Below, one piece after another: positions 46,924-62,540 of a stretch of DNA of 64,000 nt. A program made the translations under genes and the position numbers. The DNA is from Halarcobacter anaerophilus (lineage in GTDB: Bacteria; Campylobacterota; Campylobacteria; Campylobacterales; Arcobacteraceae), in NCBI RefSeq assembly GCF_006459125.1, contig NZ_CP041070.1, positions 2,046,001 to 2,110,000 of the forward strand. The letters are read 5' to 3'. Numbering within the stretch: the first letter of the stretch is position 1; each line of letters starts with the position of its first letter. Under the pieces are notes generated by a model that had not been told where the DNA came from, made no database searches, and saw only the letters and a list, made by a program, of their open reading frames with translations.

Positions 46924-46955
46924 TACATAACTTTTACACAATTTTTGATTATACT
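46924..46955 (+). promoter_or_regulatory. dctP promoter with 11-bp-period direct repeat
   Basis: TACATAA (46924-46930) and TACACAA (46935-46941) are direct repeats with an 11-base period. Eight bases on lies the -10 box TATACT (46950-46955). The same layout occurs before the second dctP gene. OmpR-family regulators bind such tandem half-sites over the -35 region; the regulator is not identified. Confidence 0.6.
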
Positions 46956-46986
46956 CTTTTTCTAACTGATATAAGGAGTGAAAATA

Positions 46987-48009
46987 ATGGAAACAAAAGG
47001 AATCCTGTCTACAGGTAAAAAACTAGTAATAGGAACAGTTGCAGCAGCAATGATGGCAACTTCTGCAGTAGCAGCAGAATATACGTTAAAGTTCTCACAC
47101 GTTGTAAGTGCTAATACGCCAAAGGGAAAAGCGGCGGATTTTTTTGAGAAAAGATTGGAAGAGTTATCTGGAGGAAGAATAGATGTACAAGTTTATCCGT
47201 CATCTCAACTTTACAACGACAATGCAGTTGTAAAAGCGTTAAGACTTAATTCTGTTCAAATGGCAGCACCTGCATTTTCAAAATTCGGGAAAATCGTACC
47301 TCAATTAGCTCTATTTGATTTACCGTTCATCTTTAAAGATATTGATCATTTGCATAGAGTACAAGACGGTGAAGTAGGAACAAAACTAAAAGATATGGTA
47401 ACTGCTAAAGGTATTATTGCTTTAGATTTCTGGGATAACGGATTTAAACAATTTACATCTTCACAAAAACCTATTCTTATGCCAAAAGATGCGGAAGGTC
47501 AAAAATTTAGAATTATGTCTTCTAAAGTATTAGAAGCACAAATGAAAGCTGTAGGAGGTAATCCTCAAATGATGCCTTTTTCAGAAGTTTATTCTGGATT
47601 GCAACAAGGTGTAATTGATGCAGCTGAAAATCCTATTTCAAATATCTACACTAAAAAATTTCACGAAGTACAAAAATATCTTACAATTTCAAATCACGGA
47701 TATTTAGGATATTTAGTAGTTATGTCTAAAAAATTCTGGAACTCTTTACCTGATGATTTAAAAGCTGACGTAAAACAAGCTATGAAAGAAGCAACTGCTA
47801 AAGAGAGAGAATTGGCACAAGCTTTAGACAAAGAGCAGTTTGAAGAAATCAAAAAATATGCTAAAGATACAGGAAAACTTGAAATATTCACATTAAATGA
47901 CCAACAAAGAGAGGCTTGGAGAGAAGCTGAAAGTAAAATCTATCCTGAATTCTACAATAAAAGAAAAATCGGAAAAGATTTAATTGAAGGTGCATTAAAC
48001 ACTAAATAA
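46987..48009 (+). CDS. dctP: TRAP transporter solute-binding protein DctP, Sec-exported
   Basis: 340 residues from ATG 46987, which sits 8 bases after AAGGAG. A GTG at 46978 is in frame but overlaps that ribosome site and is rejected. A Sec signal peptide ends near TSAVAAEYTLKFSHV. The body matches DctP: SHVVSANTPKGKAADFFEK, QVYPSSQLYNDNAVVKALR, FRIMSSKVLEAQMKAVGG and the key Arg region before GLQQGVIDAAENPISNI. It binds a carboxylate, typically a C4-dicarboxylate, in the periplasm for DctQM. Confidence 0.93.
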   Translation: METKGILSTGKKLVIGTVAAAMMATSAVAAEYTLKFSHVVSANTPKGKAADFFEKRLEELSGGRIDVQVYPSSQLYNDNAVVKALRLNSVQMAAPAFSKFGKIVPQLALFDLPFIFKDIDHLHRVQDGEVGTKLKDMVTAKGIIALDFWDNGFKQFTSSQKPILMPKDAEGQKFRIMSSKVLEAQMKAVGGNPQMMPFSEVYSGLQQGVIDAAENPISNIYTKKFHEVQKYLTISNHGYLGYLVVMSKKFWNSLPDDLKADVKQAMKEATAKERELAQALDKEQFEEIKKYAKDTGKLEIFTLNDQQREAWREAESKIYPEFYNKRKIGKDLIEGALNTK

Positions 48010-48016
48010 TTTAACT

Positions 48017-48047
48017 TTTAAACTATCGGCTCTTCCGATAGTTTAAA
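48017..48047 (+). terminator. Stem-loop after the first dctP
   Basis: TTTAAACTATCGG (48017-48029) pairs with CCGATAGTTTAAA (48035-48047), a perfect 13-bp stem with a 5-base loop, 8 bases past the stop. The U-tail is weak (TTCTTATA), so it may be partial, or protect the dctP message from decay. Confidence 0.65.
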
Positions 48048-48125
48048 TTCTTATATAAATTCCCGTAAACTGCTATTTTATAGATGATTTTATACAAGAT
48101 TTAAATTTAAAAATTTCTTCTTATG

Positions 48126-48157
48126 TACATAATAGCTACATAACTTTTAATTATAAT
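48126..48157 (+). promoter_or_regulatory. Second dctP promoter with identical direct-repeat layout
   Basis: TACATAA occurs at 48126-48132 and 48137-48143 (period 11), followed after 8 bases by the -10 box TATAAT (48152-48157). Spacing matches the first dctP promoter base for base. It lets dctP2-dctQM be transcribed independently of the first gene. Confidence 0.6.
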
Positions 48158-48184: not shown

Positions 48185-49246
48185 ATGACAAAATATGCAC
48201 TAAAATGTGTAATATCAAGTATCATAATCTTACCCATACTGTTTTTTAGTGGTTGTAAAGGGAAAGAAAAAGAGCATAAAGTTGAAGAGAAAAAAGATGC
48301 TCCGATTTTGGGTGAATACATTCTTAAGTTTTCTCATGTAGTTAGCCCAAATACACCAAAAGGAAAAGCGGCAAGCTTTTTTGAAAAAAGATTAGAAGAG
48401 TTGAGTGAAGGAAGAATTGATGTACAAGTCTATCCTTCATCTCAACTTTATAAAGATAATGCTGTTTTAAAAGCATTAAAACTCGATACTGTTCAAATGG
48501 CGGCACCGAGTTTTTCAAAGTTTGGGAAAATTGTTCCTCAACTAGCACTGTTTGATCTGCCGTTTCTTTTTAAAGATATGGCTCATATACATAGAGTGCA
48601 AGACGGGAAAGAGGGACAAAAGTTAAAAGATATGGTTAATGCAAAAGGTTATATTGCTTTAGCTTTTTGGGATAACAATTTTAAACAGTTGTCTTCATCT
48701 AAAAAACCTTTGATTTTGCCTGAAGATGCAAAAGGACAAAAATTTAGAATTATGTCCTCAAAGGTTTTAGAAGAGCAATTTAATGTAATAGGTGCTAATC
48801 CGCAAATGATGCCGTTTTCGGAAGTTTATTCGGGATTACAACAAGGAGTTATAGATGGTCAAGAGAATACTATTTCTAACATCTATACAAAAAAATTCCA
48901 TGAAGTTCAAAAATACCTGACTATGACAAATCATGGTTATTTGGGATATTTAGTTGTAATGTCTGAAGAGTTTTGGAACTCTTTACCGCAAGATTTGCAA
49001 AAAGCTGTTGTACAGGCTATGAAAGAGGCAACGGCAAAACAAAGAGAATATGCTCAAGAGTTAAATGCCAAGCAGTTTAACTTGATAAAAGAGTATGCAA
49101 AACAAAGCGGTAAATTAGAGATTATTAATTTAACAAAAGAGCAAAAAGATGCTTGGAGAAGAGCCGTTAGTAAAATCTACCCCGATTTTTATGATTCAAA
49201 TAAAATCGGTGAAGATTTGATTAAAGGCGTTTTAGCGACGGAGTAA
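48185..49246 (+). CDS. dctP: TRAP transporter solute-binding lipoprotein DctP
   Basis: 353 residues. The N-terminus has a lipoprotein signal ending ILPILFFSGC, so the mature protein starts at Cys and is lipid anchored. A charged linker (KGKEKEHKVEEKKD) follows. The rest aligns almost residue for residue with the first DctP, including QVYPSSQLYKDNAVLKALK and QQGVIDGQENTISNIYTKKFHEVQKY. It is a tandem duplicate. Asp/Ala changes near the ligand loop (INNFKQLSSSKKPL vs the first copy) may alter specificity. AGGAAGGAG precedes the ATG; dctQ follows 3 bases on. Confidence 0.92.
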   Translation: MTKYALKCVISSIIILPILFFSGCKGKEKEHKVEEKKDAPILGEYILKFSHVVSPNTPKGKAASFFEKRLEELSEGRIDVQVYPSSQLYKDNAVLKALKLDTVQMAAPSFSKFGKIVPQLALFDLPFLFKDMAHIHRVQDGKEGQKLKDMVNAKGYIALAFWDNNFKQLSSSKKPLILPEDAKGQKFRIMSSKVLEEQFNVIGANPQMMPFSEVYSGLQQGVIDGQENTISNIYTKKFHEVQKYLTMTNHGYLGYLVVMSEEFWNSLPQDLQKAVVQAMKEATAKQREYAQELNAKQFNLIKEYAKQSGKLEIINLTKEQKDAWRRAVSKIYPDFYDSNKIGEDLIKGVLATE

Positions 49247-49249
49247 AAA

Positions 49250-49873
49250 ATGATTATTTTTAGAATTTTAGGTAAAATCATCGGTTTTATAAACCAATCA
49301 ATTGCAGCAATCGGTATTACAGGCGGTGTTGCAATCGCATTTACTAATGTTGTAGCAAGATATGTTTTTGATGCATCATTAGTTTGGGCCACAGAACTAA
49401 CTATTTTAATGTTTTTGTGGAGTGTATTTTTTGCAGCGGCATACTGTTTTAAACAAGATGCACATATTGCAGTAACAATTATTCTTGATATTGTACCGAC
49501 AAAAGTTGCAAAAGTAATGTTACTTATATCTCATGTAGTAACACTTGTATTCTTAATTGCAGTTGCATATTACGGTTATGAATATCTTCTTTTGGTAATT
49601 GATTTGGATGAAAGATCAATTGATTTATGGGGTATGCCTATGTGGATTCCTTATTTAGTAATTCCTATTGCTTTTTCACTTGCAGCATATAGAGTTTTGG
49701 AAAAAATATATATTATTTTAAAAACACCTCACGAAGAGGTCTTAAAAGACAGTGAAGCAGAACAAGTTTTAGCAGGAATGGGAGTTGGAGCAGAAGATAA
49801 AAACAATGAAAATGTTAAGGAGCTAAATAAAATGGTTAAAGACGTTGAGAAGAAAACAGGAGGATTACTATGA
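49250..49873 (+). CDS. dctQ: TRAP transporter small permease DctQ
   Basis: 207 residues with four membrane helices (about 5-30, 45-66, 85-108, 120-150). VVARYVFDASLVWATELTILMFLWSVFFAAAYCFKQDAHIAV is the DctQ core motif (E-x(5)-W...A-HI). An unusually long charged C-terminal tail of about 45 residues, with a run of KDVEKKTGG, follows the last helix. It forms the transport complex with DctM. Its stop overlaps the dctM ATG by four bases. Confidence 0.93.
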   Translation: MIIFRILGKIIGFINQSIAAIGITGGVAIAFTNVVARYVFDASLVWATELTILMFLWSVFFAAAYCFKQDAHIAVTIILDIVPTKVAKVMLLISHVVTLVFLIAVAYYGYEYLLLVIDLDERSIDLWGMPMWIPYLVIPIAFSLAAYRVLEKIYIILKTPHEEVLKDSEAEQVLAGMGVGAEDKNNENVKELNKMVKDVEKKTGGLL

Positions 49874-51153
49874 GTATAGCTTTATTATTTGCAATATTTT
49901 TCCTTCTGGTTATTCTTGGAACTCCTATTGCTATCTGTTTGGGAGCATCTACATTTATTACGCTTTTAATCTTTACTGATATTTCTCCTATTGAAGTTTC
50001 GGCAATGATTTTTGAAAAAGTTGAACACTACTCATTGATGGCAATTCCAATGTTCATTCTTGCAGGTAATCTTTTAAGTAAAGGTAGTGCGGCACAAAGA
50101 ATTATAGAATTTGCAAAATCATGCGTAGGTCACTTACCCGGAGGATTACCGATTTCAGCTATTTTTGCATCAATTATTTTTGCAGCTGTTTCAGGTTCGT
50201 CTCCGGCAACAGTTGTTGCTATCGGATCTATTATGTTTGGTGCTATTATGCAAGCTGGATATCCAAAAAAATATGCAGTGGGAACTATTGCAACAGCAGG
50301 TTCTTTAGGTATTTTAATTCCACCTTCAATTGTATTAATTGTTTACGGAGTTACGGCAGAAGTATCTATCGGTAAACTTTTTATGGCAGGTGTAATTCCG
50401 GGTCTTATGCTTGGGATTATGATGATGACTATTACTTATATTGGAGCTAGAAGATTAGGTTTTGAAAAAGAAGAACCGCAACCTCTTAAAATAAGACTTA
50501 AAAAGATGAAAGATGCTTCGTGGGGACTTTTTACTATCGTTTTAGTAATCGGTGGTATTTACGGGGGAATTTTTACTCCTACTGAAGCAGCGGCAGTTGC
50601 AGCGGTTTGGGCATTTATAGTTTCTGTTTTTATTTATAAAGATATAAAACTTTCAGAACTTTATGCAACAGCTTTAGAGTCTGCTAAAACTACTTCAATG
50701 ATTATGTTTATTATCGCAAATGCGATGCTTTTTGCACACTTTTTAACAATTGAAAATATACCTCAACAAATCACTGAAGCACTTGTTGCTGCAAATGTAA
50801 ATAAATATATGTTCCTTTTGATGGTTAACTTACTTCTAATTTTAGCCGGTTCATTTATGGAACCAAGTGCTATTATTATGATTATGGTTCCTTTACTGCT
50901 TCCTGTGGCAGTAGCTCTTGGAATTGATCCGATTCATTTTGGTATTTTAATTACGGTGAATATGGAGTTAGGAATGGTGTCCCCGCCTGTTGGACTAAAT
51001 CTGTTTGTTACATCCGGGCTTACTGGTATGAGTATAAAAGATGTAATAGTTGCAGCGTTCCCTTGGACCATGACTATTTTAGTAGGTCTTATTTTAATTA
51101 CATATATACCTGAGATTTCTCTGTTTTTGCCTAATTTAATGTATGGGCATTAA
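49870..51153 (+). CDS. dctM: TRAP transporter large permease DctM
   Basis: 427 residues with about twelve membrane helices. LGTPIAICLGASTF, MAIPMFILAGNLL, GSSPATVVAIGSIM, TAGSLGILIPPSIVLIVYG, FTPTEAAAVAAVWA and MVSPPVGLNLFVTSGL are the DctM family blocks. It carries the substrate with sodium symport across the inner membrane, fed by the two DctP proteins. Nothing unusual in sequence. It ends shortly before a terminator hairpin at 51170-51195. Confidence 0.95.
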   Translation: MSIALLFAIFFLLVILGTPIAICLGASTFITLLIFTDISPIEVSAMIFEKVEHYSLMAIPMFILAGNLLSKGSAAQRIIEFAKSCVGHLPGGLPISAIFASIIFAAVSGSSPATVVAIGSIMFGAIMQAGYPKKYAVGTIATAGSLGILIPPSIVLIVYGVTAEVSIGKLFMAGVIPGLMLGIMMMTITYIGARRLGFEKEEPQPLKIRLKKMKDASWGLFTIVLVIGGIYGGIFTPTEAAAVAAVWAFIVSVFIYKDIKLSELYATALESAKTTSMIMFIIANAMLFAHFLTIENIPQQITEALVAANVNKYMFLLMVNLLLILAGSFMEPSAIIMIMVPLLLPVAVALGIDPIHFGILITVNMELGMVSPPVGLNLFVTSGLTGMSIKDVIVAAFPWTMTILVGLILITYIPEISLFLPNLMYGH

Positions 51154-52986: not shown

Positions 52987-54105
52987 TTACTCTTGAATTT
53001 TATCAAACTCCATAATAAATTTAACTCCTACGTTAGAATTTTCCAAAGTTAAATTTCCTTCAAAAGAGTTTTTAACTACGAGTTTAACCATATAAAGTCC
53101 TATTCCTGTACCTTCGGCTTTTGTAGTATAATAAGGATCAAACACTTTTTCTAAATTTTCTTCATCTATTCCTCCTGCATTATCGGCAAGAGTTAAATAG
53201 TTCTTATCATCTTTTGAATAGACTTCGATTATAATCTTTCTATCTTCTATATTTCTATCTTGAAATGCTTGTATAGAGTTTGTTACAAGATTCATTAAAA
53301 CTTGTGTCAATTCCATTTCGACACCTTTTAAAGAGAAATCATTTTCAAAATTTATTTCAAGGTCTATATTGTTTTTCTTTATTACCGAATCAACTAATTC
53401 AAAACTTCCGTCCAATGTTTTTTTGATAGAAAATGTTTTTTTATCTTTGTTTGATTTAAAAAATTCCAAAAAACCGTCTATGGTATCCCTCATATGATGG
53501 ATTTGTAATTTCGTATTTTCCGAGAATTCATCTATTGCTTCTTTATCCAACTCACCGTAATCATATGAATACTTTATATCATCACAATATAAAGACAAAA
53601 TATTAAGAGGTTGTTTCAACTGATGTGAAATCACACCTATCATCTCTCCTATTGATGCCATTTTAGTATTGTGAACAACTAATTTATTCGCCTCTTTTAA
53701 AGACTCTTTAGTCTCTTTGTTTTTATGAAAAAGATCAATATATACTTTTAGTTTTGAACTTAAAAGGTTTACATCAATCGGTTTTGAGATATATTCGATT
53801 ACACCTAAATCATACCCTTTTTGCTGATAAGCATCTTTATCGTATATTCCTGTAATAAAAATAATAGGAATATCTTTTAACTTGTCAATTCCTTTTATAT
53901 ATTCTACAAACTGGAAACCGTCGATATCAGGCATTTGAATATCACTTAAAATCAAATCTACATCATTATCCATTAGAATTTGTATTGCATCTTTTGCATT
54001 TAAAGCAGTATAGATATCAACATCAAACTCTTCTATTAAAAGTTGTAAAGAGTAAATATTCTCTTCAACATCATCTAAAATTAAAATTGAAAATCTGTTT
54101 TTCAT
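52987..54105 (-). CDS. Receiver-histidine kinase hybrid (REC-HK)
   Basis: 372 residues. An N-terminal receiver (residues 1-125) has Asp11/Asp12 in LILDDVEEN, phosphoacceptor Asp55 in LILSDIQMPD and Lys108 in ISKPID. A coiled linker leads to ASIGEMIGVISHQLKQPLN with His161. The ATP domain has LMNLVTNSIQAF, LADNAGGID and GTGIGLYM. No membrane segment, so cytoplasmic. Such proteins relay phosphate from another kinase. The ATG overlaps the TGA-side of the next kinase by four bases; the two plus the HD-GYP gene form one operon. Confidence 0.92.
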   Translation of the reverse strand: MKNRFSILILDDVEENIYSLQLLIEEFDVDIYTALNAKDAIQILMDNDVDLILSDIQMPDIDGFQFVEYIKGIDKLKDIPIIFITGIYDKDAYQQKGYDLGVIEYISKPIDVNLLSSKLKVYIDLFHKNKETKESLKEANKLVVHNTKMASIGEMIGVISHQLKQPLNILSLYCDDIKYSYDYGELDKEAIDEFSENTKLQIHHMRDTIDGFLEFFKSNKDKKTFSIKKTLDGSFELVDSVIKKNNIDLEINFENDFSLKGVEMELTQVLMNLVTNSIQAFQDRNIEDRKIIIEVYSKDDKNYLTLADNAGGIDEENLEKVFDPYYTTKAEGTGIGLYMVKLVVKNSFEGNLTLENSNVGVKFIMEFDKIQE

Positions 54106-55607
54106 CTTCTTCTCCCTATAAACTCTTCTATATCGGTTATATCTACAATATTACCTTTTATTACATAAATATCGTTTTTAAATATCTCTTTTAAAAGGTT
54201 TAACTCATGCTTTGATATGCCTGCACTGTCTAAGATTATTACATCAAAAGAACTGTTTGCATTTTGAAAAAGTTCTTCCAAGTTTGTTACTTGTTTTAAA
54301 GTATGAACTTTTTGTAATAATATTACTATATTAATAAACTTTACCGCATCTGTGTTGTAAAGCAGAATATTTCTATGTACTTGTATTTTCGTCTCATTTC
54401 TAACTCCTTCTTTTTTATTCACTTTGCTGCTTTGCTCCTCTAAATCAAGAATATCCAAGCATTTGATTGCTTCACTGTTTTTAGGAACTGTTGCATAAAA
54501 AGTCGTTCCCTTTCCTACTTCGCTTTTTACAAAAATCGAACCTTTTAAAAGCTCCAACAACTCTTTTGTAATAGCAAGCCCCAAACCTGTACCTCCAAAC
54601 TTCCTTGTTGTACTGCTGTCTGCTTGTTTAAATCTGTCAAAGATATCGCTTAATCTATTTTGAGGAATTCCTATTCCCTGATCTTCCACGGAGATAGTTA
54701 CCTGGTCATCTTCATCTTTTGCTTTTAAATAGATTGCTTTGCCTCCTTCTACAAATTTAACCGCATTGCTTAAAAGGTTTTTTACAATCTGTTTAATCTT
54801 TTTTTCATCGCTGTAAACTTCTGTTATTTTTTTATCATATTCAAAATGTAATTTGATTTTTTTCTCTTGTGTTTGAGGAAGAAACATTGAATATATCTCT
54901 TTTAGAAGTTTATATAAATTTATTTGAGAATAATCAACAACCACCCTTTTAGACTCAAGTTTTGATAAATCCAAAACATCATTTATCAAATCCAAAAGAT
55001 ATTTTCCCGAACTATTTATTATTTGCAAATTTTTAATATCCCTTTGCGTTAAGTTCTCGCTTCTATTCTCTTTCATTACAGAAGAGATTACATTTATAGA
55101 ATTTAGAGGAGTTTTAAGTTCATGACTCATATTTGCCAAAAAAATATCTTTTGCTTTGTTTGCTAGCTGCAACTGCTCTTTTTGCTCTTTTAAAAGCTTA
55201 TTTGTATCTTTTAGTTTTTTTATATTTAAACAAGATTTTATACTCAAATTTAATTTGGGAATAAAACTTTTAAACATTTCTAGGAAAAAATCCTTATCTA
55301 TACTCTCTTTTTCCACTAAAAATATTGAACCGTACTCCAATCTTAAAATTATTACACTCATTTCTTCATCAACTCTGTTAATACTTTGCGTATAATTTTT
55401 ATAAAGTTTTGGTTCAAACTCAGTTATAGTGCCGAAAGAAGCAATTTCTTCAACTTTTTTTTCATATTCGACGCAATAAAGAGCATAAAAAGCATTTGTC
55501 TGTTCAACAAATGTTTTTACTACCTCACTCATCATTTCAGATAAATCCAGGCAATTACCTATTGAACTATAACATTTATAAGTAGTTTCCAAATTACTAA
55601 CTTGCAT
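54102..55607 (-). CDS. Cytoplasmic histidine kinase with N-terminal sensor and pseudo-receiver tail
   Basis: 501 residues. Residues 1-125 look like a GAF-type sensor (weak). A coiled helix (125-150) leads to AKDIFLANMSHELKTPLNSI with His162. The catalytic domain has IVKNLLSNAVKF, VEDQGIGIP, FGGTGLGLAITKELL. The tail (about 405-501) has ILLYNTDAVKF and DVIILDSAGISK. It follows receiver topology and keeps a central Asp, but it lacks the N-terminal acidic pair and the TA/K pattern, so it is probably a non-phosphorylated receiver. No membrane helix. Starts 11 bases past the HD-GYP gene on the same strand. Confidence 0.85.
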   Translation of the reverse strand: MQVSNLETTYKCYSSIGNCLDLSEMMSEVVKTFVEQTNAFYALYCVEYEKKVEEIASFGTITEFEPKLYKNYTQSINRVDEEMSVIILRLEYGSIFLVEKESIDKDFFLEMFKSFIPKLNLSIKSCLNIKKLKDTNKLLKEQKEQLQLANKAKDIFLANMSHELKTPLNSINVISSVMKENRSENLTQRDIKNLQIINSSGKYLLDLINDVLDLSKLESKRVVVDYSQINLYKLLKEIYSMFLPQTQEKKIKLHFEYDKKITEVYSDEKKIKQIVKNLLSNAVKFVEGGKAIYLKAKDEDDQVTISVEDQGIGIPQNRLSDIFDRFKQADSSTTRKFGGTGLGLAITKELLELLKGSIFVKSEVGKGTTFYATVPKNSEAIKCLDILDLEEQSSKVNKKEGVRNETKIQVHRNILLYNTDAVKFINIVILLQKVHTLKQVTNLEELFQNANSSFDVIILDSAGISKHELNLLKEIFKNDIYVIKGNIVDITDIEEFIGRRR

Positions 55608-55618
55608 AACAGCCTCTT

Positions 55619-57388
55619 TTAATCTTTATATTTATTTCTTATTTCTACTATTTTATTCATATTTTTAAATAGTAGATCTACAAGTTTAGGTTCAAACTCT
55701 TTACCTGCTTTTTCACGCATATACTCTTTTATCTCTTCTAAATCCCAACTTTTTTTATAACATCGTTTACTGCTTAAAGCATCAAAAACATCGGCAACAG
55801 CCGTTATTCTTCCGAAAACATGAATCTCTTTGCCTTTTAAGTTGTTTGGATATCCTGTTCCGTCCCATTTTTCATGATGTTCATGGGCTACTATTGAAGA
55901 GCTTTTTAATATTCTTCTTTCTGAATTTTTGAACATATTAAAGCCTATTGTGGTATGGCTTTTCATAATTTCAAACTCTTCTTGCGTTAATTTATCGGGT
56001 TTATTTAAAATATAATCGGGAATTCCCACTTTTCCTATATCATGCATTGGTGAAGCCATTTTTAACAAAGTTGCCTCATCTTCACTTAAACCGTACTCTT
56101 TTGCCAGCAAATATGAATATAAAGCCACCCTTCTTACATGATTTGCAGTCTCTTTACTTCTTGATTCACCGATAGAACCTAAAGTTAAAATCAAATCTTT
56201 TTGTGTTTTTTCTATCTCCAACTGTAACTCTATAATTTTACTTACATCGTTTCCTACAGCCAAATACTCAAAAACTTCACTCTCTTCATTAAAAACAGGA
56301 GAAAAGGTAAAATCAATATATTTCTCTTTGCCTTTAAACAAAAACTTGATAACTTTTTGTTTAATATTTTTATTTACTAAAGAGTCAAAAATTTCCCCGT
56401 AGATTTCTTCATCATTTAATACTTCATCAAAACTTTTGCCTAAATATGCATTTATACTTAAATTCGATAATTTTAAAAATCTACTGTTTACGTTTGATAT
56501 TCTAAAATTTCTATCCAAATTTATCAAAATCGATGAATTATCCAAACATCTTTTATACTCGTTTAAAAGATGACTTTTACTAACTAAAGTATCTTTAAAC
56601 TCTTCTAATTCAACTTTTAAAAGTTTAGTCAAACCTTCATCATCCGTAACATCATTGGAAATACATATAAACTCTATTATTTTTTCATTACTATCTCTTA
56701 TTGGTATAACAGTAGAGTTTAATACATATTTTTTATGATTTTTCCCTTTACAAGAGTGTTTACCTTTCCAAAATTTTTTACTCTCCAATAATTTTAATAT
56801 ATCAGAAGATAAGATAGAAGATTTTTCTATGCTGTTAAAATTAAAAATTTTATCTTTCACATCTTCTAAACTAAACCCTGTTACTTTTTCATATTGAGAG
56901 TTTACAAAGGTTATTTTCCCTTCTATATTAAATTTAACGACGATTGTACTCTCATCTATCGCTTCTTTATACTGTTTTAAAATCTTTTTTGATTCTAAAG
57001 CTTCAATTTTTTCACATATCGCATAGATTTTTTCAATTAAGATATCCAACTCTATTGGTTTTAAAAGATAACTGTCTATATTAAGTTCTATTGCTTTTAT
57101 TAAACACTGCGTTTCCGTTCTTGCCGTAGTTAAGATAATAGGAGTATTGCTGTTTATCTCTTTTATCTTTTCAGACATTCTTAAACCGTCTACAATAGGC
57201 ATATTAATATCACTGATTACCAAATCTATACTCTTTTTTGAAAAAGTGTCAAGAGCCTCTTGCCCATTTAAACAAAGATATACATTATTAAAGACTCTAT
57301 TTAAAAATTTTACAAGTTTTGTTGCAGCTTCAAACTCATCTTCAACATATAAAATGTTTAATCTTTTTAAAAACTCTTTATTTACCAT
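55619..57388 (-). CDS. Response regulator with two PAS domains and HD-GYP output
   Basis: 589 residues. Receiver: NILYVEDEFEA, Asp60 in LVISDINMP, Lys110 in LLKPIE. PAS1 (about 143-255) and PAS2 (about 280-395) follow. The output is HD-GYP: NHVRRVALYSYLLA, MHDIGKVGIPDYILNKP, VAHEHHEKWDGTGYP, GRITAVADVFDALSSKR. HD-GYP proteins hydrolyse cyclic di-GMP, controlling motility and surface attachment. Minus-strand -10 box TATAAT (57406-57411) and AAAGGA lie just before the ATG. It leads the three-gene kinase operon. Confidence 0.93.
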   Translation of the reverse strand: MVNKEFLKRLNILYVEDEFEAATKLVKFLNRVFNNVYLCLNGQEALDTFSKKSIDLVISDINMPIVDGLRMSEKIKEINSNTPIILTTARTETQCLIKAIELNIDSYLLKPIELDILIEKIYAICEKIEALESKKILKQYKEAIDESTIVVKFNIEGKITFVNSQYEKVTGFSLEDVKDKIFNFNSIEKSSILSSDILKLLESKKFWKGKHSCKGKNHKKYVLNSTVIPIRDSNEKIIEFICISNDVTDDEGLTKLLKVELEEFKDTLVSKSHLLNEYKRCLDNSSILINLDRNFRISNVNSRFLKLSNLSINAYLGKSFDEVLNDEEIYGEIFDSLVNKNIKQKVIKFLFKGKEKYIDFTFSPVFNEESEVFEYLAVGNDVSKIIELQLEIEKTQKDLILTLGSIGESRSKETANHVRRVALYSYLLAKEYGLSEDEATLLKMASPMHDIGKVGIPDYILNKPDKLTQEEFEIMKSHTTIGFNMFKNSERRILKSSSIVAHEHHEKWDGTGYPNNLKGKEIHVFGRITAVADVFDALSSKRCYKKSWDLEEIKEYMREKAGKEFEPKLVDLLFKNMNKIVEIRNKYKD

Positions 57389-57405
57389 TTCAAATCCTTT
57401 GCCGA

Positions 57406-57411
57406 ATTATA
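57406..57411 (-). promoter_or_regulatory. -10 box of the HD-GYP operon
   Basis: TATAAT (minus) with the ATG at 57388; the leader is only about 10-12 bases, enough for the AAAGGA. Confidence 0.5.
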
Positions 57412-57481
57412 ACTACAAAAGGTATTTAAAAAGTATTTTTTTTAAATGAAAGAATAGTACTTTTGAAATATTGTTTGTTGT

Positions 57482-57487
57482 TATAAT
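57482..57487 (+). promoter_or_regulatory. -10 box of the plus-strand regulator genes
   Basis: TATAAT on the plus strand with AAGGAGG at 57498-57504 and the ATG at 57510. Supports the short start of the following gene. Confidence 0.55.
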
Positions 57488-57509
57488 TCTCAAAAATAAG
57501 GAGGTTATC

Positions 57510-58190
57510 ATGACAATGAAAATGGATGCTTGTGAATTTTTAAAAGAAAAATCTATTTTAATATTGAGTTTCGATAAAGCCATAAGTAATAGAATAGAGA
57601 ACTCTTTGAGACCATATTCAACAAAAGTGGAAGTTTTAAGAATAATTCCTAATTATCTTAATATTTCAAAATATGATCTAATCATTATTGATTTAGAGTA
57701 TTATGAAAAAAGAGAGTTGATTAAAACATTTTCAAACGATTATTATAATACGCCTATAATTTTCCTGATATCAAAACTTGAAAATATTGATTTGAACAAC
57801 TTTAGTAATATTTGTATCAAAAATATTCTATTAAAAGATGATAATTTAAAGAATATCTCTATTTATATTCAAATTATTTTACAAAAAAAAGACAAAATAA
57901 TTTTTAAAAACGGATATTCTTATTTGTTAAAAGAGAATCGTTTTTATTTCAAAAACAGTGAAGTTCCTTTAACAAAACTTGAGATTAAACTTTTTGAATA
58001 TTTGATAAAGAATATTAATAGAACCATAGATTATCAGGAGTTGGTATCTAATGTCTGGGATGATAAAAGTTGTACTATCTACAGTATTAGAAACGTAGTA
58101 AATAAAATAAGAGAAAAATCATATTATGAGATTATTAGTAACATTTCAAAAAAGGGATATACTATTAATAATGACTATATTTATATTTAA
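57510..58190 (+). CDS. OmpR-type winged-helix regulator with degenerate receiver
   Basis: 226 residues from ATG 57510 (AAGGAGG ribosome site); the earlier in-frame start at 57471 is before the -10 box. The C-terminal winged helix is intact: VPLTKLEIKLFEYLIKNINRTIDYQELVSNVWD, SIRNVVNKIREKS and SNISKKGYTI. The N-terminal 115 residues keep receiver topology and an Asp in LIIIDLEYYE. The acidic pair at strand 1 is replaced by ILSFDKA, and the Thr/Lys switch residues are unclear. It may respond without phosphorylation or through protein contact. Confidence 0.8.
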   Translation: MTMKMDACEFLKEKSILILSFDKAISNRIENSLRPYSTKVEVLRIIPNYLNISKYDLIIIDLEYYEKRELIKTFSNDYYNTPIIFLISKLENIDLNNFSNICIKNILLKDDNLKNISIYIQIILQKKDKIIFKNGYSYLLKENRFYFKNSEVPLTKLEIKLFEYLIKNINRTIDYQELVSNVWDDKSCTIYSIRNVVNKIREKSYYEIISNISKKGYTINNDYIYI

Positions 58191-58239
58191 AAAATTATGG
58201 TATTATTATTGTAATACCTTTTTTAGTAGAATATATATT

Positions 58240-58974
58240 ATGGAAAAAATTGAAGATTATGAAAAAAACATTAGAATACTGTTAGTTGAAGATGATTATC
58301 TGACTCAAGTAAAATTAGTAAAGATTTTAAACAGGGTTTATGATGATATTGTAGTTGCAAAAAACGGTGAAGAGGCTTTAACTATTTTTAAAGCCTATCA
58401 CTCACAAAATAAATCTTTTGATTTAGTAGTAAGTGATATTAATATGCCTATTATGAATGGAATTAATCTCCTTGAAAACATAAGGCAGATAGATGAACTT
58501 CTACCTTTTATTTTCGTAACCGCAAGATTGGATTTAGAGACTCTTCTACAAGTTGTAAAACTTGATATTGACGATTATATTCTAAAACCTATTGAAATAG
58601 AACCTCTTTTAAAAAGTATAGAAAAGACTATGAGAAAAAGTCTAAAAAGAAAAGAGAATCTAAATATATCTCAGAAACTCTGTTTAAGTGATGATTTGTA
58701 TTGGGACAGTATAGAAAAATATATTTATAAAGATGAAAAACAAGTTAAATTAACAAAAAAAGAGATTATGTTTTTAGATATTTTATGTAGAAGAATCAAT
58801 CAAGTTGTAAACACTGAAGATATCGTATATACTCTTTGGGAAGATGATATTGAAGTAGATTCGAATATAGCAAATCTTAAAAATCTAATCTCAAGAATCA
58901 GAGTTAAAATACCTAATCTGAATATAGAAAACGTATATGGTTTAGGATATAAATTAAGGATGAAGCATGAATGA
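58240..58974 (+). CDS. OmpR-family response regulator
   Basis: 244 residues from ATG 58240. The open frame runs 38 codons upstream through the end of the previous gene, but those residues are not receiver-like. Receiver: IRILLVEDDYLTQ, phosphoacceptor Asp66 in LVVSDINMPIMNG, Lys in ILKPIEIE. Winged helix: VKLTKKEIMFLDILCRRINQVVNTEDIVYTLW, NLKNLISRIRVKIP and NVYGLGYKL. A candidate for binding the direct repeats at the dctP promoters, but that link is only inferred. It overlaps the next gene by eight bases. Confidence 0.9.
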   Translation: MEKIEDYEKNIRILLVEDDYLTQVKLVKILNRVYDDIVVAKNGEEALTIFKAYHSQNKSFDLVVSDINMPIMNGINLLENIRQIDELLPFIFVTARLDLETLLQVVKLDIDDYILKPIEIEPLLKSIEKTMRKSLKRKENLNISQKLCLSDDLYWDSIEKYIYKDEKQVKLTKKEIMFLDILCRRINQVVNTEDIVYTLWEDDIEVDSNIANLKNLISRIRVKIPNLNIENVYGLGYKLRMKHE

Positions 58975-60241
58975 AATTGATACATCAACTTTTAAAGTTC
59001 TTTATATTGAAGACGAAGATTTAGCAAGAGAAAAATTCGGTAAATTTTTAAAAAGAAGATTCGGAGAAGTAGTTCTTTGTGAAAACGGTGTCGAAGGTTT
59101 TATGAAATTTCAGGAAAGTTTCACGAAAAATGAAAAATTCGATTTGATTTTAAGTGATATAAATATGCCTAAAATGGATGGCTTAGAGGTTTTAGAAAAT
59201 ATTAGAAAATATGACAAAGAGATTCCCGTAATATTTTTAACGGCAAGATCAGAATCTGAACAAATGTTAAAAGCTATAAATCTTCATGTGGAGAGTTATA
59301 TATTAAAACCCCTTGATTTTGATATGGTAAATGAAAAACTTGATAAAGTTTGCAAAGATATCTATTATAAAAAAATGTTTATAAAACAAGAACAAGAGAT
59401 GAAAAATTATATAGATGTTTTAGATCAAGAAGCACTTGTTTCAAAAACAGACGCAAAAGGAGTTATAACTTTTGTTAATAACGGATTTTGTGAAGTTTCA
59501 GGTTACTCAAGAGAGGAGTTAATAGGAAAACCTCATAATATAGTAAGACATCCCGATGTTCCCAAAGATTTTTTTAAAGAGATGTGGGAAACTATAAAAG
59601 CGGGTAAAATCTGGACAGGAATTCACAAAAATCTGGCAAAAGACGGATCCACATACTTTATTAACTCAAAAATCTTTCCTATTTTTGAATTAGGAGGAAA
59701 CAACGTAAAAGAGTATATGTCCGTAAGATTTTTGGTTACCGATTTGGAACAACAAAAAAGAGAAAGCCATAAAAACTATTTAAGCCAGCTTACAAATTAT
59801 AAAAAAAATCTGAATGTTATAAATAAAGAAAAAGAGACTTTAGAAAAAACGATTCAAGAACTTGAGTTCTCAATTTCCGCTTTAAATGAGAAGTATAAAG
59901 TAAGTGAAATGAAAAGAAAAGAGTTACACTCTCAATTAGAAGCTTATGAAAAAAACAATTTAGAGTATAATAAAATCGATTTAATGACAAAAAGAGACAA
60001 AACCAAACAGTTTGAAGAGATATATAAATCTTATAACCTTATAAAAGGGAAATTAAACAGAGTAGAAAAAGAGTTAAAAGAGAAAGAAAAACAGTATCAA
60101 AGCAAAGTTGAACAAATCGATGACTTCGTATCAAGAGAGATAAAACTAAATAAAAGAATCTCAGATTTAAAAGATTTAGTAACAAATCTTCAAAAAGAGA
60201 ATACTCAAGTTTTGAAAAACAAATCAATACTTCCTTTTTAA
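58967..60241 (+). CDS. Receiver-PAS-coiled-coil signalling protein
   Basis: 424 residues. Receiver: VLYIEDEDLAREK, Asp64 in LILSDINMPKMDG, Lys in ILKPLD. The PAS (about 150-265) has NNGFCEVSGYSREEL and GKPHNIVRHPDVPKDFFKEMWETI, the Aer-type flavin-binding PAS motif that reports redox or oxygen state. From 268 to 415 it is a continuous charged coiled coil. No kinase, cyclase or DNA-binding output is present, so it may act as an adaptor or scaffold. It follows the response regulator with overlapping ends and ends 1 base from the convergent Cache kinase. Confidence 0.88.
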   Translation: MNEIDTSTFKVLYIEDEDLAREKFGKFLKRRFGEVVLCENGVEGFMKFQESFTKNEKFDLILSDINMPKMDGLEVLENIRKYDKEIPVIFLTARSESEQMLKAINLHVESYILKPLDFDMVNEKLDKVCKDIYYKKMFIKQEQEMKNYIDVLDQEALVSKTDAKGVITFVNNGFCEVSGYSREELIGKPHNIVRHPDVPKDFFKEMWETIKAGKIWTGIHKNLAKDGSTYFINSKIFPIFELGGNNVKEYMSVRFLVTDLEQQKRESHKNYLSQLTNYKKNLNVINKEKETLEKTIQELEFSISALNEKYKVSEMKRKELHSQLEAYEKNNLEYNKIDLMTKRDKTKQFEEIYKSYNLIKGKLNRVEKELKEKEKQYQSKVEQIDDFVSREIKLNKRISDLKDLVTNLQKENTQVLKNKSILPF

Positions 60242-60242
60242 T

Positions 60243-61829
60243 CTATTTAGGCAAGATTATTTCAAATCTTGCTCCAGCTTTCCCCTCTTTTACTTTTAAT
60301 TCCCCTTTCATATTTTTTTCAACAATAATTTTTGACATATAAAGCCCTATTCCTGTACCGTCACTGCCATTTTTTGTCGTAAAATAGGGTTCGAAAATTT
60401 TGCTTTTGGGCTCTACTTTTATACCTCCGCCGTTATCTTCTACGATTATAATTATATTTTCGTCTACCTCTTTACTATCTATTTTTATCCAGGGTTTTTT
60501 TATTTTGTTTTTTATTAGAATATCTTTTGCATTTGTAATAATATTTAAAATAACCTGTTCAAACTCATTTAAATAGGTATTCAACTTTAGATTATTATCT
60601 ATACAAATTGTAATACTAATTCTATTGTTTGATAAAGAACTTGAAACTATAGTCATAATAGAATCCATTGCTGTTTTTAAACTAAATTGCTCTTTTGCTT
60701 TTTTAGGCATAAAAAAGTTTCTAAAATCATCTATAGTATGAGACATATATTCTAAAACCCTGTCTGCCTCTTTTGATTTTTTTTTCATTAACTCTTCATC
60801 AAGCTGCCCCATATTGTATTTGAATTTTATAAACATAAGTATTGTAGAAAGCTCCGACAAAGGTTGTCTCCATTGATGGGCAATATTTGAGATCATCTCT
60901 CCTAAAGCAATAAATCTTGATTTTTGTACCAGCAACTGTTCATGTTCTCTGTTTTTTTCTATCTCCTGCTCTACTCTTTTTTCCAAAGTCTCATTTAACT
61001 CTTTTAATTCCTGAGATTTTGAGTGAACACTCTCTTGATAACTTTTTAAAACCTCATCGATTTTTTGTGAGATTAAAATAGAGATTACTATTGCCATAGA
61101 AAGGAAAAGTAAAAAAAGAAGAATATTTTGGAAAACTTGGTTTTGAACTCTTTTTTTCAGATGCTCTTTGTTTATCGCAATCTCTTTTTCTATATCATCA
61201 ACATAAACTCCCACGGCAATAACCCAATTCCATCTTTTAAAATATCTAAAATAAGAAAGCTTCATTTTAGCTTCATTGGTATAAACTTTATTATAAGTAT
61301 ATTTAGTAAAAGATTCACCCTTTTGTCTTATATCTTTTAAAAAAGCTTCTCTAAATTTTTTGCCGTTGCTGTCTTTATAGTTTGTTGAGATAGGTTTTCC
61401 CAAAAGATCGGGTCTGTTTGGATTTACCAAAAGTTTTGCAAAATTATCTCCTCCTTGCATATTCATAATTTGATATACGAAAATATAGTTGCTTTTATCT
61501 CTGTTAAATTTTATATTATTTAGAAGTCTTACGGTATCTGCTTTTAACTCCCTTTCATCTTCGTCACTTTTAGTTGCATTATAATTTATAATATCAATAA
61601 TAGTGTTAATCTCTTTTTTCAAAGCACTTTTTTGATCATCATATTGATCTTGGACAAATTTTTCCATCTGAATTTCAAAATCTTCATAAGTATTTTTTAC
61701 ATAAAAATAAGAGATTAGAAAAATCATTGTAGTCATAATGATTATAAAAATGTAGATTATCATTTTTGAGATATTTTTTTCGCTAATAAACTTCACTTCA
61801 ACTTCCGTAAAATGGATTTTTGTTATCAT
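60243..61829 (-). CDS. Membrane histidine kinase with Cache sensor domain
   Basis: 528 residues. TM1 (about 23-43) and TM2 (about 236-255) flank a periplasmic single-Cache domain with YIFVYQIMNMQGGDNFAKLLVNP, PNRPDLLGKPIS and RWNWVIAVGVYVDDIEKEI, typical ligand-sensing residues. A coiled linker precedes ALGEMISNIAHQWRQPLSEL with His318. The ATPase has LNIITNAKDIL, VEDNGGGIK and GTGIGLYMSKIIV. The ATG at 61829 is only 27 bases from the divergent regulator start; GTG at 61796 has a better ribosome site (GGAAG). Small organic acids are likely ligands for the family. Confidence 0.9.
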   Translation of the reverse strand: MITKIHFTEVEVKFISEKNISKMIIYIFIIIMTTMIFLISYFYVKNTYEDFEIQMEKFVQDQYDDQKSALKKEINTIIDIINYNATKSDEDERELKADTVRLLNNIKFNRDKSNYIFVYQIMNMQGGDNFAKLLVNPNRPDLLGKPISTNYKDSNGKKFREAFLKDIRQKGESFTKYTYNKVYTNEAKMKLSYFRYFKRWNWVIAVGVYVDDIEKEIAINKEHLKKRVQNQVFQNILLFLLFLSMAIVISILISQKIDEVLKSYQESVHSKSQELKELNETLEKRVEQEIEKNREHEQLLVQKSRFIALGEMISNIAHQWRQPLSELSTILMFIKFKYNMGQLDEELMKKKSKEADRVLEYMSHTIDDFRNFFMPKKAKEQFSLKTAMDSIMTIVSSSLSNNRISITICIDNNLKLNTYLNEFEQVILNIITNAKDILIKNKIKKPWIKIDSKEVDENIIIIVEDNGGGIKVEPKSKIFEPYFTTKNGSDGTGIGLYMSKIIVEKNMKGELKVKEGKAGARFEIILPK

Positions 61830-61856
61830 ACCATATCTTTAATAATAAGGCTTTAT

Positions 61857-62540
61857 ATGGATAAATCACTAATTTCTAAACTTAGTAACTTTTCCCTTTT
61901 ATATGTGGAAGATGAAGAGGGAATAAGAAATAACATATATGAAATTCTTAGACATCTATTTAAAAAGACTTTTGTCGCAAAAAATGCAAAGGAAGCATAT
62001 AATATGTATCAGTCAAATCGTCCCGATTTGATAATTACCGATATTAAAATGCCGAATGAAACAGGAATCGATTTAATAAAAAAAATCAGAAAAAGAGACA
62101 GCAAAGTAAGAGTTATAATAACTTCTGCGTACACTGATTTAGATTATATGTTAGATGCAACGGAACTGCATTTAGTAAAATATATTATAAAACCTATTAC
62201 CGAAAATAAATTAAAAGAGGCCTTTGAAGCTTTTATAAAAAGTTATGATGACTCAAAAGTTTTCAATTTAAAAGAGGGATGGCTGTTTGATGCTAGTAAA
62301 TCTATAATTCAGAATGAAGAGATTGAGTATAAATTAACAAAAAAAGAGAATCTGTTTTTAAAACTTCTTCTTAAGAAAAACAGAATAATCACTTACCAAG
62401 AGATGGAAAACGTAATTTGGAACGAAGATAATATTATGACACCAAATGCAATGAGACTCTTTATAAAAAACTTTAGAAAAAAACTTCCTTCTAATGTACT
62501 AAGAAATGTTCAAGGAACAGGATATAGATTAGTTTTATAA
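61857..62540 (+). CDS. OmpR-family response regulator
   Basis: 227 residues from ATG 61857, with AATAAGG just before it; 15 upstream codons in frame overlap the kinase gene and are dropped. Receiver: LLYVEDEEGIRN, Asp62 in LIITDIKMPNETG, switch Thr in VIITSAYTD, Lys in IIKPITE. Winged helix: YKLTKKENLFLKLLLKKNRIITYQEMENVIWN and NVQGTGYRLVL. It is divergent from the Cache kinase and is its probable partner. Together they resemble an acid-sensing two-component pair near transporter genes. It overlaps the EI24 gene end by 6 bases on the opposite strand. Confidence 0.9.
   Translation: MDKSLISKLSNFSLLYVEDEEGIRNNIYEILRHLFKKTFVAKNAKEAYNMYQSNRPDLIITDIKMPNETGIDLIKKIRKRDSKVRVIITSAYTDLDYMLDATELHLVKYIIKPITENKLKEAFEAFIKSYDDSKVFNLKEGWLFDASKSIIQNEEIEYKLTKKENLFLKLLLKKNRIITYQEMENVIWNEDNIMTPNAMRLFIKNFRKKLPSNVLRNVQGTGYRLVL

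Follow-up and report, generated by a model that had tools for sequence, protein, structure and literature searches.

Each of the two dctP promoters in a 64-kb window of Halarcobacter anaerophilus (the whole stretch of DNA analysed here) carries a direct repeat of two 7-base half-sites, placed exactly 8 bp before its -10 box. Judging from these sites, their spacing and conservation, their co-occurrence with one response regulator gene and the physical linkage between the two, we consider it quite likely that each repeat is the predicted binding site for one dimer of the OmpR/PhoB-type response regulator encoded at 61857, partnered by an sCache histidine kinase, and that this system would co-activate both dctP promoters and probably a wider regulon. 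The features concerned are the following.

46924..46941, plus strand: direct repeat TACATAA-CTTT-TACACAA, putative regulator-binding site at promoter P1 (sequence, conservation)
46950..46955, plus strand: -10 box TATACT of P1, exactly 8 bp past the repeat
46987..48009, plus strand: dctP copy 1, solute-binding protein of the TRAP system, leader of the cleavable type (Pfam DctP)
48017..48047, plus strand: terminator-like hairpin between dctP copy 1 and P2 (consensus scan only)
48126..48143, plus strand: direct repeat TACATAA-TAGC-TACATAA, putative regulator-binding site at promoter P2 (sequence, conservation)
48152..48157, plus strand: -10 box TATAAT of P2, exactly 8 bp past the repeat
48185..49246, plus strand: dctP copy 2, lipoprotein-type leader with FSGC (Pfam DctP; leader type read from the sequence)
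49250..49873, plus strand: dctQ, TRAP small membrane subunit (gene order shared with relatives)
49870..51153, plus strand: dctM, TRAP large membrane subunit (gene order shared with relatives)
60243..61829, minus strand: sensor histidine kinase with a periplasmic sCache_2 domain (Pfam; orthologues beside dctPQM in relatives)
61857..62540, plus strand: OmpR/PhoB-type response regulator, best candidate for both repeats (Pfam, neighbourhood, co-occurrence)

The half-sites recur with a period of 11 bases (TACATAA at 46924-46930 and TACACAA at 46935-46941 in P1; TACATAA at 48126-48132 and at 48137-48143 in P2), and the repeats, this period and the 8-base gap to the -10 box were all found where the preliminary description had placed them. 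OmpR/PhoB-class regulators bind tandem half-sites one helical turn apart near the -35 position, usually when phosphorylated, and both dctP repeats are predicted sites of this type, consisting of tandem half-sites one helical turn apart over the -35 of a putative sigma-70 promoter. A sigma-70 scan of the window listed neither dctP promoter, because neither has a TTGACA-like -35 element. The exact pattern TACAYAA-N4-TACAYAA (0 mismatches) occurs in the window at the P1 and P2 sites only; with up to 2 mismatches allowed the window count is not above chance (approximately 5 matches expected), and the evidence therefore has to come from position and conservation. The host genome, a single contig of 3.02 Mb, contains 5 exact repeats versus 0 matches to the reversed-pattern control, and the control rate in 101 related genomes was approximately 9e-6 per 150-bp upstream strand.

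The hairpin between the two dctP copies makes two separate promoters plausible, and by the predicted leader types the tandem pair would supply one DctQM with two binding proteins, the first soluble and the second anchored to lipid. The closest relatives of DctP are found in Arcobacter/Halarcobacter MAGs (83-84% identity). In tandem dctP pairs the first leader is mostly cleavable and the second carries a lipobox (FSGC here; LTGC or FTGC in relatives), and a few relatives have a lipoprotein leader on both DctP copies.

The dctP upstream regions of a first sample of 50 relatives were compared, and 69 further loci were then added. Among the 50 relatives, almost every Arcobacter-type locus had the repeat 5' of dctP, variants (TACATAC; GACATAA/TACATAT) were found at dctP in several other Campylobacterales MAGs, and no repeat was seen at dctP in Nautiliaceae and in one group of Campylobacteraceae/Nitratifractor MAGs. 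Overall, the site is present at 95 dctP promoters from many genera, and genomes with two dctP genes carry it at both promoters. Across the 95 sites ACA is invariant in both half-sites, which is partly a result of the scoring rule; TANNNT follows the repeat at exactly 8 bp in 92/95, and in most of them the -10 box is a sigma-70 like TATAMT. This comparison had been proposed in the preliminary description as a check, and with the repeat conserved in approximately 100 relatives, the predicted OmpR/PhoB-type site at the -35 common to both dctP copies is well supported. The inner spacers mostly differ between the two promoters across the genus (CTTT/CTCT types at P1 and TAGC/TAGA types at P2), indicating that the sites are old and were kept separately rather than recently copied.

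As to the regulator, the protein encoded at 61857 has a receiver domain (Pfam Response_reg, 2.5e-25) followed by a C-terminal winged helix (Trans_reg_C, 1e-8), each match exceeding the gathering score, and its best full-length solved relative is 1kgs. Its gene is divergent from that of the kinase at 60243-61829, and in the window the pair lies 9 kb from dctPQM; in many relatives and lineages, orthologues of both directly adjoin dctPQM, either upstream or downstream. An orthologue of the regulator was present within the fetched stretch at 37/114 dctP loci, many of the stretches being too short to tell. In the first set of loci, the orthologue was found in 29/29 genomes with a dctP repeat (weakest match 5e-57) and in none of those without, and family-wide in 76/101 genomes (E <= 1e-56). 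Using a fixed rule (repeat score of at least 11 of 14 and a -10 box exactly 8 bp on), the site was detected at 94/94 dctP genes of regulator-positive genomes versus 0/25 of regulator-negative genomes, with one further dctP gene, from an incomplete genome, left unscored. Two genomes were exceptions at the preset regulator threshold and their handling was settled after the motif had been seen: G059 was counted as positive since a diverged regulator (186 bits) lies beside dctP, and G065 (74% complete, with a kinase fragment beside dctP) was left out. On the DctP tree the repeat and the regulator change 5 times, always together; with just 2 of these changes on branches that are well supported, significance in a sign test is out of reach, and the physical linkage between the regulator and dctP is a stronger argument than the trait correlation on the tree. 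Close orthologues of 61857 show hardly any variation in the recognition helix MTPNAMRLFIKNFRKKLP, in which the other response regulators of the window differ. No repeat was seen between the start codons of the kinase and the regulator, where autoregulation would place it.

The preliminary description had suggested one response regulator for both dctP copies, with the genes at 58240 and 61857 as candidates; gene neighbourhood and co-occurrence speak for 61857, whereas 58240 was rejected, since its orthologues were detected in only 3 of 42 genomes and the majority of these 42 carry the repeat. The regulator-like protein at 57471 was likewise rejected, since Pfam finds a DNA-binding domain only and the recognition helix differs. 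CemR (Abu0127) was weighed as a rival global regulator, and the text of the paper on it holds no binding motif for comparison. Several response regulators and kinases form a dense two-component cluster in a 10-kb part of the window (52987-62540). Most likely, the repeats are the putative operators through which the 61857 regulator would act on P1 and P2.

A rival reading is that another OmpR-type response regulator (e.g., of the MKILLLED type) reads this code at dctP and that the 61857 pair is only a linked passenger or acts elsewhere. In 120 genomes drawn from the order, the composite of repeat, 8 bp and TANANT is rare outside the family, with 5 sites in 4 genomes (L393:5195, L394:5370 on the minus strand, L395:4969, L396:5063 on the minus strand and L397:97). 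The genes that follow these sites encode DoxX, superoxide dismutase, MsrAB and DsbD, and two of the sites have a different OmpR-type regulator of the MKILLLED type (25-27% identical to 61857) encoded nearby; the out-of-family sites are probably a redox regulon of a sibling OmpR-type regulator. Within Arcobacteraceae, sites at a second TRAP system, an SSS symporter and a formate dehydrogenase adjoin their own kinase-regulator pairs, and the host genome as a whole has 78 response regulator-like matches. The code is thus probably read by two or more regulators, and a target cannot be assigned from the motif by itself. However, the dctP site follows the 61857 orthologue exactly, both where it occurs and where it is missing, it is the genes of the 61857 pair and not those of other regulators that recur beside dctPQM, and the regulators beside the other sites differ from 61857 in the recognition helix, making it unlikely that a different regulator acts at dctP. 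One second TRAP binding protein is encoded downstream of its own kinase-regulator pair (L156:4133-8129), with an exact TACATAA-N4-TACATAA between the regulator and the dctP-like gene.

The kinase at 60243-61829 is an sCache_2 histidine kinase by its Pfam matches (sCache_2 2e-23, HATPase_c 1.4e-18). An AlphaFold2 model of the sensor domain, built from 45 orthologues (pLDDT 89.4), was closest to PscD (5g4y; Z 17.1, rmsd 2.2 over 144 residues), followed by Adeh_3718 (4k08; Z 16.7) and the urea-binding TlpB (3ub6; Z 16.1), the first two being sCache domains of the carboxylate type. The NCBIfam CtpM profile matched residues 28-307 with 67.7 bits, far below the profile cut-off, and PA2652/CtpM, a chemoreceptor with this class of sensor domain, has C4-dicarboxylates as ligands (PMC5795001). 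The invariant polar residues of the sensor (Y115, Y119, N136, N138, R139, D141, R160, K181 and others) are compatible with carboxylate binding but prove nothing; by analogy with these sCache proteins a carboxylate is a likely signal, although a shared fold alone is no proof.

Beyond dctP, exact repeats were counted in the family. Regulator-positive genomes (n=76) contain 2.88 exact repeats per genome versus 0.37 for the reversed control, approximately 8-fold, and regulator-negative genomes (n=25) 0.40 versus 0.12; a Mann-Whitney test on these counts gave p 4e-10, the genomes not being independent. Among the sites inspected, 113/117 in regulator-positive genomes lie outside open reading frames and 4/117 inside, compared to 3/8 outside and 5/8 inside in regulator-negative genomes. 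Recurrent targets, the identities of which were checked by Pfam, include malic enzyme (repeat 113-139 bp upstream, in both orientations), aceE of pyruvate dehydrogenase (62-74 bp upstream), a DUF485+SSF acetate-type symporter (actP), pta (an inverted repeat approximately 121 bp upstream) and fumarate reductase cytochrome b, as well as NiFe hydrogenase, and in G050 a repeat lies upstream of pyruvate:ferredoxin oxidoreductase. The malic enzyme promoter scored at least 12 in 15/25 scored regulator-positive genomes versus 0/18 regulator-negative ones; shuffled malic enzyme upstream regions reached 12-13 at most once per few hundred draws, so single weak malic enzyme sites are uncertain. In the host genome three consecutive half-sites (TACATCA-N4-TACATAA-N4-TACATAA) are found upstream of malic enzyme (L158:3377-3405).

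The target genes form one route, in which a C4 acid is taken up, malate is converted to pyruvate and pyruvate to acetyl-CoA, and acetate is handled, and the recurrent sites suggest that in Arcobacteraceae a single two-component system serves both the uptake and the catabolism of carboxylates. Tentatively, the pair at 60243 and 61857 may even be an undescribed master switch of this family, in which a single 18-bp code would couple the uptake of C4-dicarboxylates by dctPQM to malic enzyme, to the oxidation of pyruvate, to the uptake and activation of acetate and to fumarate/succinate oxidoreduction, an extension to which we give somewhat less than even weight. A palindrome, TGAACATATGTTCA, directly follows the repeat at aceE across the genus (L157:3319-3332; also in L144, L152, L311, L316, L318, L329 and L334), and near-copies of it lie upstream of por, encoding pyruvate:ferredoxin oxidoreductase (variants at L061 and L159). 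It probably points to a second regulator of pyruvate oxidation.

In the mechanism that we propose, the kinase would probably sense a small periplasmic carboxylate, and the phosphorylated 61857 regulator would bind head-to-tail at approximately -38 to -21, replacing the -35 element, and recruit sigma-70 RNA polymerase at P1 as well as P2; activation at dctP is predicted because of this position of the site. Soluble DctP, lipid-anchored DctP and the DctQM permease would then rise together. The regulator would probably also act at the promoters of malic enzyme, pyruvate dehydrogenase, the acetate symporter, pta and fumarate reductase, and such a regulon would connect the import of C4 acids with the steps that turn them into pyruvate and acetyl-CoA.

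Alternatively, the repeat could be part of a promoter for an alternative (ECF) sigma factor instead of an activator site, since dctPQM expression of A. butzleri is altered in mutants of the ECF sigma factors 2 and 7 (PMC3445524). We regard this as very improbable, as the authors of that study themselves expect indirect effects, the -10 box has the sigma-70 like form at most of the 95 sites, and the repeats at malic enzyme and pta occur in both orientations and at varied distances, which is impossible for a -35 element. That the repeats are a product of chance or AT-rich drift, or of one promoter copied recently with a gene duplication, can practically be dismissed, for although half-sites are common in such an AT-rich genome and the window should hold several inexact matches, it is refuted by closely matching repeats in an identical position at so many dctP promoters and by the mostly distinct inner spacers of P1 and P2.

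Our literature search returned nothing relevant on a regulator of dctP in Arcobacter or on the TACATAA site, and no description of the site was found in the literature searched. For most two-component genes of A. butzleri no functional prediction was possible (PMC2147049), and the density of such systems in Arcobacteraceae is very high, most being without an assigned function or binding site. In this case, sequence alone yields a candidate regulator with its sensor, the code that it would read in the DNA, and putative targets that make up a coherent pathway. Several OmpR-type regulators of Campylobacterales may use one code, and target lists drawn from the motif only need care.

PhoB boxes consist of head-to-tail 7-base half-sites 11 bp apart that replace the -35 element, with a short spacer to a sigma-70 -10 box. 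The architecture of the dctP sites and the receiver plus Trans_reg_C composition of 61857 resemble those of OmpR/PhoB activators, whereas the half-site TACAYAA, the 8-bp spacer to the -10 box and targets in carboxylate uptake and catabolism set the dctP sites apart from the PhoB box. The combination of a sensor kinase and a response regulator for C4-dicarboxylate uptake recalls DctBD and DctSR of Proteobacteria, which control dctA or dctPQM (dctSR is named for DctPQM in Pseudomonas; PMC5293742). However, in 61857 Pfam found Response_reg and Trans_reg_C only, and neither the AAA+ sigma-54 domain of NtrC-type DctD nor the GerE domain of LuxR-type DctR, and the sensor is of the sCache_2 type. In the same phylum, RacRS of Campylobacter jejuni is a two-component system controlling C4-dicarboxylate transporters, with RacR targeting dcuA/dcuB, aspA and ggt and responding to low oxygen and nitrate (PMC5293742); its transporters are Dcu and not TRAP. 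The modelled sensor domain shares the sCache fold with PscD, Adeh_3718 and CtpM (PA2652), which in contrast are chemoreceptors, at an identity of approximately 21%, and not histidine kinases. Most likely, the 61857 system represents two-component regulation of the OmpR/PhoB type, with the attractive, putative extension to carboxylate catabolism.
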